A DNA stretch of 26,406 bases, from IMG/VR virus record IMGVR_UViG_3300028393_000294, positions 1-26,406 of that record; one strand, written 5' to 3'. How positions within the stretch are numbered: position 1 is the first letter of the stretch; each line of letters opens with the position of its first letter. The notes beneath the pieces were generated by a model. It saw nothing but the letters and a program-made list of their open reading frames with translations. It ran no database searches and was not told where the DNA came from. A program made the position numbers and the translations under genes. Shown one piece after another: positions 394 to 19,677 of this stretch. This DNA comes from a virus.

Positions 394-619
394 TCTATCC
401 CTAGATTATTTTGGACATTTAGGGCTAGATAACCGCACAGGCCTGAGGGTTTTGCCTTACTCCTCCCTCAGACTTTTGGGAGTGCGTTGTCCCGGCACTC
501 GCGAACACGGGACACTTAAGTTTCCTAACTCAAAAGGTTAGGATTTCGCAAGCATCAAAGGAACGGTTCTGGAGATGCGAGGCTTGGTGGGTTGCTCCGC
601 CACCTGCGAACACGGAGCA
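394..619 (+). ncRNA. multi-hairpin RNA region with twin covarying hairpins
   Basis: At least five inverted repeats occur between 394 and 619: TCTA-CCCTA/TTAGGG-TAGA (about 394-432), CTGAGGG/CCCTCAG (about 444-473), TGTCCCG/CGGGACA (488-494/508-514), TCCTAAC/GTTAGGA (about 523-543) and TGCTCCG/CGGAGCA (593-599/613-619). The third and fifth are diverged copies of one hairpin: both have 7-bp stems, 13-nt loops ending GCGAACA, and two compensatory base-pair swaps. No convincing ORF fits here. It may be a small RNA or a long leader of the HTH gene at 649. Confidence 0.55.
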
Positions 620-3389: not shown

Positions 3390-4436
3390 ATGGCTACTAT
3401 CAAAGACACATACGCAATCATAGGCACGACTTTCGCATCTCGTCTTGACGAGTTTATGGCTCAATCAACTGTCGTTGATGCTGCACTTCGCATCAACTCA
3501 ATGGTGACTCCACAGGGTCGCTACACGAAGCGAGCACCACGCACCACGAAGCCAAAGAGCACGACACCAGCAGTTGATGTTGATGTAGTTTCTGCGACTT
3601 CTGTAATCGCAAGTGAAGATAACATCTTTACTCGTCCTAATGGCTCTGCCTATCACGCACGCAAGTGGGGTGAACATCAAGATGTCGCAACTCTTCGCAA
3701 AGCTCGTGAAGCAACTGCGATGGTGATGTCAGGTGTTGTAGGTTCGCCTATGTTCGCACTTCTCTATGGTGCGCCGGGAACTGGCAAGACTGCTCTCGTT
3801 GAGGGTGCGTTTGGTGAAGTCAATCTTGTAATGGGAACTGGCGACACAGAAGTCTCTGACTTCATTGGTGGTTATGTTCAGACTCCATCAGGTGGCTTTG
3901 AGTGGATTGATGGTCCACTACTAAAGGCCGCAGAAAATGGTGAAGTTATCTTCATTGACGAGATTGGTCTCATTGACCCAAAGGTCTTGTCTGTTGTTTA
4001 TGGAGCGATGGACGGTCGCAAGGAAATCGTAGTAACTGCGAATCCGGAGCGCGGAGCAGTCGCTATCAAAGAAGGTTTCTATGTTGTAGCAGCGACTAAC
4101 CCTAACGCTCCCGGCGTTCGACTTTCGGAAGCATTACTATCTCGCTTTACTATTCAAGCAGAGATGGCAACTGACTGGTCACTTGCTCGCACTCTACATG
4201 TTCCAACTGCGATTGTGACTTGCGCTCAAAACTTGAGCAAGAAGCAAAGTTCAGGTGAAGTTAGTTGGTCTCCACAGATGCGTGAGTTGCTCGCGTTCCG
4301 CGACATCGCAGGTGTCTTTGGTAACACATTCGCTGTATCAAACCTACTCGCCTCTGCACCAGAGATGGACCGACCTGTTGTGTCTGATGTCCTGTCTCGC
4401 GTGTTCGGTAGCGAGTGCAAGCCAGCGAGAATCTAA
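3390..4436 (+). CDS. MoxR/CbbQ-like AAA+ ATPase
   Basis: The 348-residue protein has a Walker A GAPGTGKT at residues 127-134 and a Walker B VIFIDEI at 186-192, then a sensor-like AATNPNAPG segment and an arginine-containing LLSRF. This order is typical of MoxR/CbbQ AAA+ ATPases, which work with VWA-domain partners as chaperones or metal-insertion machines. The next gene encodes such a partner. Residues 1-90 are a less conserved basic and threonine-rich extension. ATG at 3390 has AAGGGAG upstream. Confidence 0.88.
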   Translation: MATIKDTYAIIGTTFASRLDEFMAQSTVVDAALRINSMVTPQGRYTKRAPRTTKPKSTTPAVDVDVVSATSVIASEDNIFTRPNGSAYHARKWGEHQDVATLRKAREATAMVMSGVVGSPMFALLYGAPGTGKTALVEGAFGEVNLVMGTGDTEVSDFIGGYVQTPSGGFEWIDGPLLKAAENGEVIFIDEIGLIDPKVLSVVYGAMDGRKEIVVTANPERGAVAIKEGFYVVAATNPNAPGVRLSEALLSRFTIQAEMATDWSLARTLHVPTAIVTCAQNLSKKQSSGEVSWSPQMRELLAFRDIAGVFGNTFAVSNLLASAPEMDRPVVSDVLSRVFGSECKPARI

Positions 4437-4456
4437 CTCCCTTTAGGTTCTCGCTA

Positions 4457-4498
4457 GGGTGGGGTTGAGTCGCACTTGGTGTCGCGACTCCCCCACCC
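4457..4498 (+). terminator. long GC-rich hairpin between ATPase and VWA genes
   Basis: GGGTGGGG-tt-GAGTCGC pairs with GCGACTC-CCCCACCC, 15 bp around a 10-nt loop. There is no T run, so it may attenuate transcription or protect mRNA ends. Confidence 0.6.
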
Positions 4499-4508
4499 AC
4501 CACTCAAC

Positions 4509-4537
4509 TTGACACCATCATAGAACTACTGTAACTT
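4509..4537 (+). promoter_or_regulatory. promoter of the VWA gene
   Basis: TTGACA at 4509-4514, TAACTT at 4532-4537, spacing 17, with TCATAGA in the spacer. Confidence 0.7.
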
Positions 4538-4577
4538 TGGTCTTAGACACACAGACCCTTTTAGGGAAGGACAAGAA

Positions 4578-6356
4578 ATGGCACATCTAGACACAGCAAC
4601 AACAGAGCAAGGAACTCGTCACAATGAGTGGCTCACAGTTGGAGCACAGATTGGACAGCTCGTCAATGAGGCAGCAGGTCGCTACGACCTTGTAGGTCTT
4701 GCAGGACCTGTCGCCGGTAGTGGAGCACCAGCGTGTTTCAAGCCAGCGATTGCGGAAGTTGAAGTGAACACCACAGTCGCGTTCGGCGCAGGTACAACAC
4801 CAGAGATGATTGGTGACATCAACCTACGCGAAACTCAATACGAGTTTCCAAAAGCAACTGGAGCAATTCTTCACGAAGCTTTTCACGCAAGATTCTCTGC
4901 TTGGGAACTTGTAGATGCTCAAGCAGTTCTCAAAGCAGACGAGTACGAAGCACTCGTGCTACTTGAAGAGACTCGCATTGAGAAGCAGGGTCTTGACCTT
5001 GACTACAAGAATCGCGTGTTCTTGCGTGCATCAGCACTTGAGATTGCACTAGGTGACATTGAGGCCGCCAAAGAAGCAAGTAGTGTTTCACAACTTGCAC
5101 AGTTGGTTGGTCTGATTCACGGACGAGTGCTCGCCGGTATTCTTGAATTTGACGAAGTTGAAGAAGTCATAACATCTGTGAACTCCGCACTTGGTGAAGA
5201 CATCGTTCGCCAACTCTCAACTATCTTGCGTAAGTTTCAATCACACTACAACAATTCAGATTTGACTGATGTCTACCCACTAGCAATCGAATGGGCACGA
5301 ATCGTTCGCGAAGCAAAAGAAGAGCGTGGCGAAACTGATGGTGGTTCAGGTTCAGGTGCAGGTGCTGGAGAGATTGCAGAGATTCTTGAGAAGTTAGCAG
5401 AAGCAGCTGATGGAGTTTCTATCAAGAACTATGGCGAACTTTGTGACCAGCAAGAAAGCGAAGAGTGGGAGCAAGAAGTCAAAGAGCGTGCATCAGCATC
5501 TAAAGAACAGCACGAGCACGCAAGCGAAGCAGCAGAAGTATTTGGTAAAGGTACAGGACCTGCACCAGAGTCTTCAACAACAAGTCACCTGATTGAAACT
5601 CGCAAGCCTACAAGTAGCGAGCGTTCGGCAGCAGTTGTGGTTGCTCGTATGCTTGAGAAAGCAAAGTATCGTGAGCGCGATGCGATTGAGATTACCAGCG
5701 TACTTCCTCCCGGTCGTCTTCGCACAAAGGCTCTCGTCCAGCAAGCAGCACTTCGCGACAAGGGCATACACAAACCTGTTGAAGCTTTCCGCAAGACTGT
5801 ACGCAAGCACACAGACGACCCAACTCTTTCTGTTGGTGTCTTGGTAGACATCTCTGGCTCAATGAACTCTGCGATGAACCCAATGGCAGTTACAGCGTGG
5901 GTAATGAGCGAAGCAGTAAAGCGTGTTCAAGGTCGCGCATCTATGGTCTACTTTGGTCAAGATGTATTTCCAACTCTCAAAGCCGGACAAAGCCTTGATG
6001 ATGTGAATGTGTATTCCGCGACAGATGGCACAGAGAAGTTTGACAAAGCGTTCAAGGCTCTTGATGGCTCTCTCAACCTGCTACACGGAAATGGAGCACG
6101 ATTGCTAGTTGTCGTCTCTGATGGCTGCTTTACAGGTAAAGAAGTCAAAGCGACACGCAAGTGGATTGCTAGATGTGAGCAAGCCGGAGTTGCGGTATTG
6201 TGGATACCGTTCGATGGTGGCTATCACGCACGGAAACTCTTGAGCGACTCAAAGGTGAAACCTTTAGTCGGAGTGAGTGACCCTGTTGAGGCCGCCACAG
6301 AAATCGGGCAAGCGTGCGCTAAGGCTCTTACTCAAGCAGGTGCTCGCAACTCATAA
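4578..6356 (+). CDS. VWA-domain protein with HExxH motif, partner of MoxR-like ATPase
   Basis: The 592-residue protein has HEAFH at residues 99-103 and an EETRIE segment at 130-135, which together look like the zinc ligands of a gluzincin-type metallopeptidase fold. Residues about 255-345 are acidic and low in complexity. The C-terminal VWA domain carries a complete MIDAS start, DISGS at 424-428, and a later VVSDG. This resembles CobT-like or CoxE-like VWA proteins that pair with MoxR/CobS AAA+ ATPases, as here. In phages the target is not known to me; peptidase activity is untested. ATG at 4578 follows AGGGAAGGA. Confidence 0.82.
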   Translation: MAHLDTATTEQGTRHNEWLTVGAQIGQLVNEAAGRYDLVGLAGPVAGSGAPACFKPAIAEVEVNTTVAFGAGTTPEMIGDINLRETQYEFPKATGAILHEAFHARFSAWELVDAQAVLKADEYEALVLLEETRIEKQGLDLDYKNRVFLRASALEIALGDIEAAKEASSVSQLAQLVGLIHGRVLAGILEFDEVEEVITSVNSALGEDIVRQLSTILRKFQSHYNNSDLTDVYPLAIEWARIVREAKEERGETDGGSGSGAGAGEIAEILEKLAEAADGVSIKNYGELCDQQESEEWEQEVKERASASKEQHEHASEAAEVFGKGTGPAPESSTTSHLIETRKPTSSERSAAVVVARMLEKAKYRERDAIEITSVLPPGRLRTKALVQQAALRDKGIHKPVEAFRKTVRKHTDDPTLSVGVLVDISGSMNSAMNPMAVTAWVMSEAVKRVQGRASMVYFGQDVFPTLKAGQSLDDVNVYSATDGTEKFDKAFKALDGSLNLLHGNGARLLVVVSDGCFTGKEVKATRKWIARCEQAGVAVLWIPFDGGYHARKLLSDSKVKPLVGVSDPVEAATEIGQACAKALTQAGARNS

Positions 6357-16838: not shown

Positions 16839-17591
16839 ATGGGAACATTTGTATCTTTATTTGCCGGAGTAGGTGGCTTTGACCTCGGTCTTGAGTCTGG
16901 AGGACACACTTGTGTCGGTCAGGTTGAGATTGACCCGAAGTGCCTTGCGGTATTGGAAAAGCATTGGCCAGATGTGTCAAAGCATAATGATGTAGTAACA
17001 GCAAAGGAATGGGCTAATGAGCAAAACATCATCGGAAAAGTTGACATTGTCTGCGGAGGATTTCCGTGCCAAGACGTTAGCGTTGCAGGAAAAAGGGCTG
17101 GACTGGCTGGCGCAAGGACTGGACTATTCTTTGATGCACTCTCTTTCGCAACGCACGTCAAAGCAAAAACTCTCATCTTGGAGAATGTCCCAGGACTTTT
17201 ATCAAGCAACAACGGACGCGATTTCGGAGTCGTCCTCACTAGTCTGGCCGACGCAGGGTATAGCGACATCCAATGGCGTGTTCTTGATTCGCAATTCTTC
17301 GGAGTCCCCCAACGCCGTCGTCGAGTCTTCATTGTCGCAAGTACTCCAGACGGAAGTTTCCCCGAAGTACTCTTTGAGCGCGAAAGCCTCGGAGGGAATC
17401 ATCCGGAGAGCGGAACGCAGGGGCAAGACTCTACCGGAAGCACTGAAGAACGCGCTGCAAGCAGTGGTGGACGCGGCGAAGACCAGCGAGTAGGAAACTT
17501 TGAACTCTGGACTTTTCCAGAAGAAGCAGTAACACCAGCGTTATCAGCTCGTCGTTCCGGTGACATGCTGAACTACCAGCAGCCTGAGTAG
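16839..17591 (+). CDS. C5-cytosine DNA methyltransferase, catalytic half
   Basis: The 250-residue product has motif I FAGVGG (residues 8-13), motif IV GGFPCQ with catalytic Cys77, motif VI ENVPG (115-119) and motif VIII QRRRR (158-162). The family transfers a methyl group from S-adenosylmethionine to cytosine C5. Motifs IX and X are missing because a TAG at 17589-17591 ends the frame within the variable recognition region. The next ORF continues in the same frame after E-K and supplies motifs IX and X. Either the enzyme works as two subunits, as known split C5 enzymes do, or the TAG is read through. Confidence 0.9.
   Translation: MGTFVSLFAGVGGFDLGLESGGHTCVGQVEIDPKCLAVLEKHWPDVSKHNDVVTAKEWANEQNIIGKVDIVCGGFPCQDVSVAGKRAGLAGARTGLFFDALSFATHVKAKTLILENVPGLLSSNNGRDFGVVLTSLADAGYSDIQWRVLDSQFFGVPQRRRRVFIVASTPDGSFPEVLFERESLGGNHPESGTQGQDSTGSTEERAASSGGRGEDQRVGNFELWTFPEEAVTPALSARRSGDMLNYQQPE
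17017..17493 (+). CDS. ORF nested in the methyltransferase gene in another frame
   Basis: An open frame of 158 residues lies wholly within the catalytic half, in the +1 frame. It starts with ATG and has AAGGA eight bases upstream. Its sequence, with SSLVWPTQGIA in the middle and SPKYSLSAKASEGIIRRAER near the C-terminus, resembles a phage protein family I recall as '...YLSPKACAGILRRAERRGK...', often annotated beside phage cytosine methyltransferases. Both frames therefore look like known proteins. It may be a true overlapping gene, or a shadow that databases have propagated. Confidence 0.5.
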   Translation: MSKTSSEKLTLSAEDFRAKTLALQEKGLDWLAQGLDYSLMHSLSQRTSKQKLSSWRMSQDFYQATTDAISESSSLVWPTQGIATSNGVFLIRNSSESPNAVVESSLSQVLQTEVSPKYSLSAKASEGIIRRAERRGKTLPEALKNALQAVVDAAKTSE

Positions 17592-17597
17592 GAAAAA

Positions 17598-18422
17598 ATG
17601 TTAAGCTGGTTCGTGAAGACGATTCGGTCTGGTGCGCGAGCTGCTGATGGAAGCCTTCCAGCTGATGTTTGGACTGAAGGAGTTGTTCATCCAACTCTGA
17701 ACTTGTTTGATGTTGGAGATACAAGGGCGGTTACATTGGTAATTCACTGGAAGCCGATTGACGAAGGGGTCGTTGGACCTTTAACAACTGGGATGGATTC
17801 ACCACGCGGTTCTGAAACATCTGACTCAAAGCATCTTGTGATTGGAGAAGAAGTGCCGACATACCCTATTGACACTCGTAATGCTCTTCGTGACCCAGAT
17901 AAGAAAGATGCGATGAACAGGCAAGGTCTTGGTGTTGGAGAAGATGGTGACCCATCACCAACATTGACAAGTCTTTTCGTACCAGCAGTAATTTCTACGG
18001 AGGAAGCAGAAGTGAGTAGCGTATTTCCCATCCAGAACACAGTGATTGGTCGTAAGGACACAGCCGGACCTCAGGGTCGTGGGCACGGAGATGCGGATGG
18101 ACCGATGTTCACTCTTGACACCGGGGGAGGTCACGCAGTGGCCGTAGCTGAAGAGGAAAAAAATTTGGAACCAGCGGCTTACGATGAGTTTAATGATTCA
18201 ATTTCCCCGGTACATCACACGCTGCGTGCCGGAACAAAGCAGTCAACTGGGGTTTTTGCCAGCGTAGTTCGCCGGCTCACCCCGGTAGAGTGCGAGCGGC
18301 TACAAGGATTTCCAGATGACTGGACAATGGCTGATGCCAAAACAGTTGATTCGCATCGTTACAAGCAGATGGGTAATGCGGTTACAGTAAATGTGATTGG
18401 GTGGATTGGCTCTCGCCTCTGA
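17598..18422 (+). CDS. methyltransferase C-terminal module 1 (TRD plus motifs IX and X)
   Basis: The 274-residue ORF continues the frame of the catalytic half beyond the TAG. It starts at the ATG in TAGGAAAAAATG, so the A-box may serve as ribosome site. The N-terminal part has repeated 'PTLN', 'PSPTLTS' and 'GGGHAVA' segments typical of the variable region of phage C5 enzymes. Motif IX RRLTPVECERLQGFP lies at 225-239 and motif X RYKQMGNAVTVNV from 254. It is the longest of the five modules. A GGAAAAAAA box at 18155 is read as E-E-K-N-L. Confidence 0.82.
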   Translation: MLSWFVKTIRSGARAADGSLPADVWTEGVVHPTLNLFDVGDTRAVTLVIHWKPIDEGVVGPLTTGMDSPRGSETSDSKHLVIGEEVPTYPIDTRNALRDPDKKDAMNRQGLGVGEDGDPSPTLTSLFVPAVISTEEAEVSSVFPIQNTVIGRKDTAGPQGRGHGDADGPMFTLDTGGGHAVAVAEEEKNLEPAAYDEFNDSISPVHHTLRAGTKQSTGVFASVVRRLTPVECERLQGFPDDWTMADAKTVDSHRYKQMGNAVTVNVIGWIGSRL

Positions 18423-18670
18423 TGGAGAAGCCTTTCCCCACCATCATTGCTGGGTTGTCGCATCGCGGAGGAACGACTCAGGATGCTTATGTCTTTGCTC
18501 TCATAGATGCTCTTGACCAAGTACGCCGTGTCACCCCTCCTGAGTGCGAGAAGTTACAAGGATTTCCTGAAGGCTGGACTGACCAACACTCAGATACAAC
18601 TCGCTACCATCAGATTGGTAATGCGGTAACAGTAAATGTCAGCAGTTGGATTGGTAGAAGGCTCAGATGA
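18422..18670 (+). CDS. methyltransferase C-terminal module 2
   Basis: 82 residues. ATG at 18422 overlaps the previous TGA (TGATG). About 32 variable residues precede motif IX (RRVTPPECEKLQGFPEGW) and motif X (RYHQIGNAVTVNV). An upstream in-frame GTG at 18401 is less likely. It lacks all catalytic motifs and should need the catalytic half as partner. Confidence 0.72.
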   Translation: MEKPFPTIIAGLSHRGGTTQDAYVFALIDALDQVRRVTPPECEKLQGFPEGWTDQHSDTTRYHQIGNAVTVNVSSWIGRRLR

Positions 18671-18930
18671 TTGTCAAATACCCTGAAGAGGTAGTAGGAA
18701 CTATTACCACAGCCTTCGGTGCGAAGAACTACTCAAACCACCAAGAACTGATGGAAGGGAGCGTTGTTGTGTTAGAGAACGATGTTCGTCGTCTGTCACC
18801 GGAGGAGTGTGAACTCCTACAAGGATTCCCTTCTGGTTGGACTTGGATAAGTGCAGACGAGCCTCGGTACAAACAAATGGGCAATGCGGTAACAGTTAAT
18901 GTTATTAAATGGATTGGTGGAAGATTATGA
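18667..18930 (+). CDS. methyltransferase C-terminal module 3
   Basis: 87 residues, ATGA overlap with module 2. The variable start contains a TITTAFGAKNYSNHQELMEG segment similar to target-recognition stretches in full-length phage enzymes. Motifs IX (RRLSPEECELLQGFPSGW) and X (RYKQMGNAVTVNV) are intact. Confidence 0.72.
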   Translation: MIVKYPEEVVGTITTAFGAKNYSNHQELMEGSVVVLENDVRRLSPEECELLQGFPSGWTWISADEPRYKQMGNAVTVNVIKWIGGRL

Positions 18931-19202
18931 TTCTTTACGACGCAACACGAAATGAAGACCATCGTGAATACCACGACCTTTCTCCAACAGCCACGGCTCG
19001 CTGGGGCACCGGGGGAAACAATGTTCCGTTCCTGGTTGATGCCGGAACAGCTCGCCGCCTGAGCCCGGAGGAAGTTGAGCTGCTCCAGGGGTTCCCGGTT
19101 GGTTGGACAGCTCCAGCAGCAGTATCTACCCGGTACAAACAGCTCGGAAACGCAGTTACGGTCAATGTAATTGGTTGGATTGCTGGAAAAATTGATGTCT
19201 GA
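18927..19202 (+). CDS. methyltransferase C-terminal module 4
   Basis: 91 residues, ATGA overlap with module 3. It starts MILYDATRNEDHREYHD, then motifs IX (RRLSPEEVELLQGFPVGW) and X (RYKQLGNAVTVNV). Base composition shifts here to CCGG- and AGCTG-rich DNA compared with modules 2 and 3, although the protein motifs stay conserved. Confidence 0.72.
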   Translation: MILYDATRNEDHREYHDLSPTATARWGTGGNNVPFLVDAGTARRLSPEEVELLQGFPVGWTAPAAVSTRYKQLGNAVTVNVIGWIAGKIDV

Positions 19203-19677
19203 GGAAGAAATAATAGCGTTTAGTCACACTCAGGGGCTAGATTGTCAGCCATCTAACGAAAACTTTCCAACTTTGCGTTCCGGAGGCGGCGGACATGCGG
19301 TGATGGTAGCAGCTCCGATTCAGGATGGTAGAGAGATGGAAAAAAACCAGAACGGCCTTGGCGTAGCATCACCGGGCTCACCAAGTTACACGCTGGATTC
19401 AACCGGAGCACAGGCAGTTGCTACTTGGTGGGACGGCGGCCAAATCAGCCAGACGCTTGATGCCGTGCTTGCTAAAGGTCAAACTATGCCAGATAAGAAT
19501 CGTTTCCCTGCGGTGATTCAAGAAAGCAGGGTTCGCCGGCTGACACCAATTGAAGCGGAGCGTCTTCAGGGATTCCCCGATAACTGGACAGACCTACACG
19601 CTGATACAAACAGGTACAAGCAAATGGGTAATGCCGTGACAGTTGATGTCGTGGCTTGGATTGCGTCACGCCTCTAA
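19195..19677 (+). CDS. methyltransferase C-terminal module 5
   Basis: 160 residues. ATG at 19195 overlaps module 4 by 8 bases; the GTG at 19171 lies deeper in module 4 and is less likely. The variable part again has 'GGGGHAVMV', 'GLGVASPGSPSYTLDS' and 'TLDAV' segments as in module 1, then motifs IX (RRLTPIEAERLQGFPDNW) and X (RYKQMGNAVTVDV). A GGAAAAAAA box lies at 19338. A terminator follows, closing the operon. Confidence 0.75.
   Translation: MSEEEIIAFSHTQGLDCQPSNENFPTLRSGGGGHAVMVAAPIQDGREMEKNQNGLGVASPGSPSYTLDSTGAQAVATWWDGGQISQTLDAVLAKGQTMPDKNRFPAVIQESRVRRLTPIEAERLQGFPDNWTDLHADTNRYKQMGNAVTVDVVAWIASRL

Follow-up and report, generated by a model that had tools for sequence, protein, structure and literature searches.

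A conserved pseudoknotted three-way junction RNA, found in uncultivated phages, with a possible role in blocking 5'→3' decay

The window analysed here is the whole 26,406-nucleotide stretch of the IMG/VR virus record IMGVR_UViG_3300028393_000294. Within one short leader it carries two hairpins whose stems differ by paired swaps, which raises the question of whether they belong to a selected RNA structure and, if so, what such an RNA does for the phage. An earlier note, made from the sequence alone, described 7-bp stems with 13-nt loops ending in GCGAACA. Both hairpins stand, with perfect stems, where it placed them, at 488-494/508-514 (TGTCCCG/CGGGACA) and at 593-599/613-619 (TGCTCCG/CGGAGCA), and two stem pairs indeed differ compensatorily between them. 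The GTTG that it read before the stem was slightly off, as GT alone precedes and TG is part of the stem. It proposed no function, and its unit, the hairpin, needs correcting, since each is the 3' half of a three-way-junction pseudoknot.

The core GCGAACACGG occurs exactly twice in the 26-kb window, against 0.08 expected. In both hairpins the first five to six loop bases pair with the bases directly before GT: GAGTGC (480-485) with GCACTC (495-500) in copy A, and GGTGG (586-590) with CCACC (600-604) in copy B. This makes each unit an H-type pseudoknot. A sequence-free descriptor of this shape (5 bp, 2 nt, 7 bp, 7 nt) matched the window, on either strand, only at the twin sites, compared with a mean of 0.48 when both strands were shuffled. 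Folded thermodynamically as a whole, the leader was only mildly unusual against shuffles (z -1.87), and the structural case therefore rests on comparative evidence.

The leader and the features that follow it lie on the plus strand. A promoter (352-380) is formed by TTGACA at 352-357, a 17-nt spacer and TATAAC at 375-380, with a predicted transcription start near 387. It is followed by a hairpin predicted by folding, P0 (394-429), with GATTATTTTGGACATT in its loop. The same loop is found in P0 of a different phage (L370, 11325-11360), the stems differing. Copy A of the element spans 434-514 (model R2 match 431-516, 53.2 bits, E 3.9e-9) and consists of helices P1 (434-436/501-503), P2 (443-449/465-471, the hairpin spanning 443-471) and P3 (480-485/495-500), the loop GT (L1, 486-487) and the pseudoknot (488-494/508-514). 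A spacer hairpin, CCTAAC/GTTAGG, is predicted by folding at 524-542. Copy B spans 545-619 (model R2 match 544-621, 54.2 bits, E 2.4e-9), with P1 at 545-549/606-610, P2 at 552-556/574-578 (hairpin 552-578), P3 at 586-590/600-604, GT at 591-592 and the pseudoknot at 593-599/613-619. A Shine-Dalgarno-like AGAAGGA (631-637) then precedes a gene at 649-870 with a GTG start, encoding a 73-aa helix-turn-helix protein (Pfam HTH_3). The short unit led by both elements ends at an intrinsic terminator (1283-1330; CCCCCTT...AAGGGGGA and a T-run).

Elsewhere in the window, promoter-like boxes GATTTGACA are repeated at about 150, 1447, 2273 and 2823, several of them followed by near-identical leaders (GACACCTACA..AAGGGG) ahead of small genes. 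A separate region, 16839-19677, opens with the start of a Dcm-like cytosine methyltransferase and continues with several ORFs in which RRLTPxExERLQGFPxxWT...YKQMGNAVTVNV recurs as a C-terminal motif; apparently the methyltransferase's target-recognition end has been duplicated about five times.

The earlier note had named the absence of further copies as what would refute it. Copies were found in quantity. Starting from the phage ATPase at 3390, 80 related viral loci were reached, and in several of them this hairpin recurs some 2-3 kb upstream of the ATPase, its stems altered yet matching. A pattern scan of IMG/VR with the hairpin core gave many more members. Three more scans, each with another part of the fold unconstrained, and a covariance model brought the total to about 80 phage contigs. 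When the pseudoknot was unconstrained, true members nevertheless carried CCG/CGG, and when P1 was unconstrained the sole deviating group was L403/L410/L411 (GCGCACA); these conserved parts are therefore not artefacts of the search pattern. ACA was fixed in all the scans and GCGAACA in most, so their invariance is partly ascertained. The element is present once per contig, except in the window phage and its relatives, which have two in tandem. Copies A and B resemble different subfamilies, and elements near-identical to copy A occur in L003, L004, L007 and L008. The ATPase itself is MoxR-like (AAA) and is paired with a VWA (CoxE/CobT-like) protein in the window (3390-6356) and at the 80 viral loci; the pair is found widely among large actinophages, cultured phages of Gordonia and Microbacterium and the lake phage DSL-LC01 included.

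Comparison of the members revealed the complete fold. Every clear member has CGCA upstream, followed by a variable hairpin, and the CGC pairs with the GCG of GCGAACA around that hairpin, which makes the element a three-way junction. A short P1 (CGC/GCG) closes the junction with the variable hairpin P2 and a P3 of 5-6 bp. The P3 loop is 9 nt, GU plus seven nucleotides that form a 7-bp pseudoknot with the seven directly 3' of P1. Members with a long P2 (L004, L008, L086, L113, L403 and the window at 450-464) expose pyrimidine loops such as UUCUCCUUU, similar to the 16S rRNA tail that serves as anti-Shine-Dalgarno; the L008 loop matches the phage's own downstream Shine-Dalgarno.

A MAFFT alignment of 16 compact members, on which model R1 was built, contained 43 double-change cells compared with 13.6 in shuffles. 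In a MAFFT alignment of all members (A1) the 5' strand was wrongly aligned, and a model-based alignment was used instead. The R1 search of 68 sources returned 70 matches, 56 of them distinct, and these are the basis of the covariation counts. Standard pairs fill 95.5% of paired cells, and P2, P3 and the pseudoknot together hold 187 double-change cells, as against 51 in shuffles and 15-35 with slid partners. The pseudoknot cells are 95.2% paired although the aligning model omitted the pseudoknot, so this pairing does not derive from the fit. By parsimony, 52 compensatory events were inferred on a tree (26 in P2, 10 in P3 and 16 in the pseudoknot), compared with 0-4 for slid partners. One such change separates copy A from L003, the closest relative of the window, where the P2 strands CTGAGGG/CCCTCAG have become CTGAGAG/CTCTCAG. 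G-U pairs outnumber A-C pairs 77 to 18, and the RNA is therefore the sense strand. The claim of a selected RNA structure is thus supported by 56 distinct homologues with strong sense-strand covariation.

The pseudoknot is invariant in its inner CCG/CGG, and so are CGCA, GU and GCG.ACA elsewhere in the fold; unpaired among these residues are the (nearly invariant) A after CGC, the loop GU and the ACA before the 3' strand of the pseudoknot. The J2/3 junction lacks conservation between subfamilies. P1, with a 3-bp core, is constant across members and for that reason remains unproven by covariation. With this reservation, we regard the fold, a three-way junction that a pseudoknot locks, as nearly certain. 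The element is a conserved sense-strand RNA module of phage transcripts.

Rfam 15 gave no family match at gathering or relaxed thresholds (E up to 5-10), and BLAST of the leader, several members and short core pieces against a phage collection found no homologue. The element was not recognised in 394 sampled Actinomycetes genomes, a search of limited sensitivity, nor was there a convincing match in 13 cultured actinophages (12 sharing early genes or the ATPase, plus D29). It is absent from DSL-LC01, one of the large relatives, in which the ATPase is present. Candidates that arose in these searches were rejected: the best model match in mycobacteriophage D29, examined for its stable leader RNAs, reached 13.9 bits without a pseudoknot; matches in Microbacterium (G041) and in L029 are chance, apparently within coding sequence; and matches of a 14-base pattern in bacterial genomes are mostly chance, none combining P3, GT and the pseudoknot. 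WhiB, an actinobacterial regulator, is encoded in 26 of 38 contigs and, among 14 control genomes, in Corynebacterium alone, so the hosts are Actinobacteria. As far as Rfam and the literature searched show, the family is undescribed; its carriers are uncultivated phages of Actinobacteria.

By computed position the element is intergenic in every case, and the flanking genes vary. Four classes of placement were seen. In the first (L045, L046, L048, L367, L369) it lies at the 5' end of the transcript: TTGACA-17-TA..AT boxes end 4-5 nt before it, so P1 starts at about +1. In the second (the window and L004/L007/L008/L363) it lies in a leader, at least 50 nt from the promoter. Near-consensus promoters precede it in L004/L007/L008/L363 and in L045/L046/L048/L367. 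The third class sits between early-operon genes, in some cases 0-3 nt past a stop codon and usually 18-25 nt before the next start; in the related phages L202, L131 and L360 it occupies differing places within the same operon. Stop-codon read-through was considered and dropped, as other members have a frame that does not run on into the following gene, and spacing is variable. The fourth class has no same-strand gene downstream, the element forming part of a 3' UTR or of a stand-alone RNA gene ahead of a terminator. In L113/L401 a consensus promoter, an upstream hairpin, the element and a terminator-like GC-rich hairpin make up a putative RNA gene of about 180 nt; L086, closely related, shares the element and the hairpin after it; and in L403 a gene, the element and a terminator are followed by a convergent gene. 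Neighbouring genes are mutually unrelated (Pfam, ten nearby proteins), and in the large phages several genes have their own promoters. Varied positions and unrelated neighbours speak more for a module that acts on RNA itself than for one that controls a single gene. In L089, L131, L168 and L406 a long hairpin lies downstream of the element (for example L406:686-735). The PD-(D/E)XK exonuclease gene that comes next has the Shine-Dalgarno AGGAGAC, to which the hairpin loop GTCTCCTTT is complementary, and this hairpin is probably a separate pseudoknot for translational control.

The reading that we favour is that the element is a roadblock or 5' stabiliser against 5'→3' decay. This function is inferred by analogy, and we put it at slightly worse than an even chance. 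The preference rests on the helix order, which is that of the exonuclease-resistant flaviviral xrRNAs, on the recurrence of their ring without sequence similarity, and on the near-universal presence of RNase J, found in 57 of 60 Actinomycetes genomes. Once the pseudoknot closes, the segment 3' of P1 would encircle the 5' strand in an xrRNA-type ring, and this ring would halt or keep out 5'→3' decay, mainly that by RNase J. Whatever RNA lies 3' of the element would be stabilised: early mRNA where the element leads or interrupts an operon, and a small stable RNA where it stands before a terminator. In the window, the tandem pair would shield the leader of an early unit of three genes. Support comes from the varied flanking genes, the five loci at a transcript 5' end and the two groups in which the element precedes a terminator without a same-strand gene. 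Several observations stand against it. P1 is short, invariant and without covariation support; the stand-alone form leaves little RNA to protect beyond the element; a terminating ribosome would disturb P1 in the members 0-3 nt past a stop codon; and the many invariant bases could as well bind a protein, RNA polymerase or a ligand. A bolder version, in which DNA phages of Actinobacteria independently evolved an xrRNA-class ring that blocks RNase J, and either stabilises early mRNAs or ties up RNase J through a small stable RNA, is possible, though less likely than not.

The rival that survives best is a trans-acting small RNA or decoy. Its fold would bind a protein of the host or the phage, perhaps a defence factor or even RNase J, and the positions would be mere routes to transcription. 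This remains possible. Its best support is the RNA gene of L113/L401, with its own promoter, upstream hairpin and terminator-like hairpin; the single copy per genome, variable adjacent genes and strongly invariant core residues also agree with it. Against it, most members sit inside operons, and the exact 5'-terminal position in the five loci of the first class would have no obvious reason.

Two cis-acting alternatives appear unlikely. As an antiterminator like HK022 putRNA, the nascent fold would bind elongating RNA polymerase so that terminators are ignored. The size of about 70 nt, the position just past early promoters or inside early operons, and the strong terminator three genes downstream in the window speak for this. 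However, putRNA is built of two stem-loops and has no pseudoknot; a terminator and a convergent gene follow immediately in L113/L401/L086 and L403, where read-through would be useless; and the separate promoters of the large phages count against it too. As a translation element or riboswitch, the fold, with or without a ligand, would gate the Shine-Dalgarno of the downstream gene. Many members do have a start codon 18-25 nt downstream, the L008 P2 loop is complementary to a Shine-Dalgarno, and so is the loop of the hairpin that follows the element in four loci. Yet there is no consistent class of downstream gene, the genes being unrelated or, in two groups, absent from the strand, and compact members lack anti-Shine-Dalgarno loops.

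A new self-cleaving ribozyme separating phage cistrons is very unlikely: the fold is small and pseudoknotted with few invariant unpaired bases, and small ribozymes do occur in phages, but there is no match to an Rfam ribozyme family, J2/3 is not conserved between subfamilies and a cleavage site cannot be assigned. That the hairpins are a feature of the DNA, as inverted repeats bound by a protein, or arose by chance is supported by the stem symmetry alone and is all but excluded by the covariation, with its one-strand G-U excess and the conserved pseudoknot and three-way geometry.

What has been established is a well-supported RNA family, absent from Rfam and with an intricate tertiary fold, carried by phages of environmental Actinobacteria. 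To our knowledge, no exonuclease-resistant RNA has been described in bacteria before. If the block to RNase J is real, this would be the first such bacterial RNA, a convergence with flaviviruses and a handle on actinobacterial mRNA decay. If another function is the true one (RNA polymerase modification, decoy or ribozyme), the compact conserved core would make it a tractable new regulatory RNA.

Among known systems, mycobacteriophages L5 and D29 produce stable leader non-coding RNAs (PMC5712189), and an abundant stable RNA near an early actinophage promoter is thus a shared theme; D29, however, lacks the element. Antitoxin RNAs of type III toxin-antitoxin systems are H-type pseudoknots, and each unit here contains one of about 35 nt. 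The element differs by its added P1 and P2, the lack of a repeat array and the lack of an Rfam match. Such antitoxins are tandem repeats upstream of a ToxN/CptN/TenpN-type toxin, which the single-copy element does not satisfy: none of ten nearby proteins matched a toxin family (Pfam), and no ToxN-like gene was recognised. HK022 putL, located immediately after PL, needs no phage protein and exerts its effect across 10 kb (PMC9378689). Like putRNA, the element is about 70 nt, lies near early phage promoters and is a candidate for cis action independent of adjacent genes; putRNA differs in being two pseudoknot-free stem-loops, a definition that the element does not meet, and occurs as two copies per genome in an E. 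coli phage.

The closest likeness is to flaviviral xrRNAs. Their arrangement encircles the 5' end with a ring, and Xrn1, Dxo1 and bacterial RNase J1 are stopped by it, the last as shown for a West Nile xrRNA (PMC5760640). Xrn1-resistant RNAs of different viruses have this ring in common and no sequence similarity (PMC12191101). The element departs from them in its 7-bp pseudoknot, its loop linkers of 2 nt and 0 nt and a P1 core of just 3 bp, and in its location in DNA phages, often at 5' ends or within operons. It may work like an xrRNA, the ring and the resistance being inferred, yet we do not assign it to that family, because it has no sequence match to it, nor to any described family in Rfam 15, and its function is untested. 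What it does share is a junction whose P3 loop pairs 3' of P1, with P2, P3 and the pseudoknot covarying and P1 constant; the order P1, P2, P3, loop, P3', P1' and downstream loop partner, equivalent to the L3-S4 pseudoknot; and an occurrence singly or in tandem, the two copies in the window recalling tandem xrRNAs.
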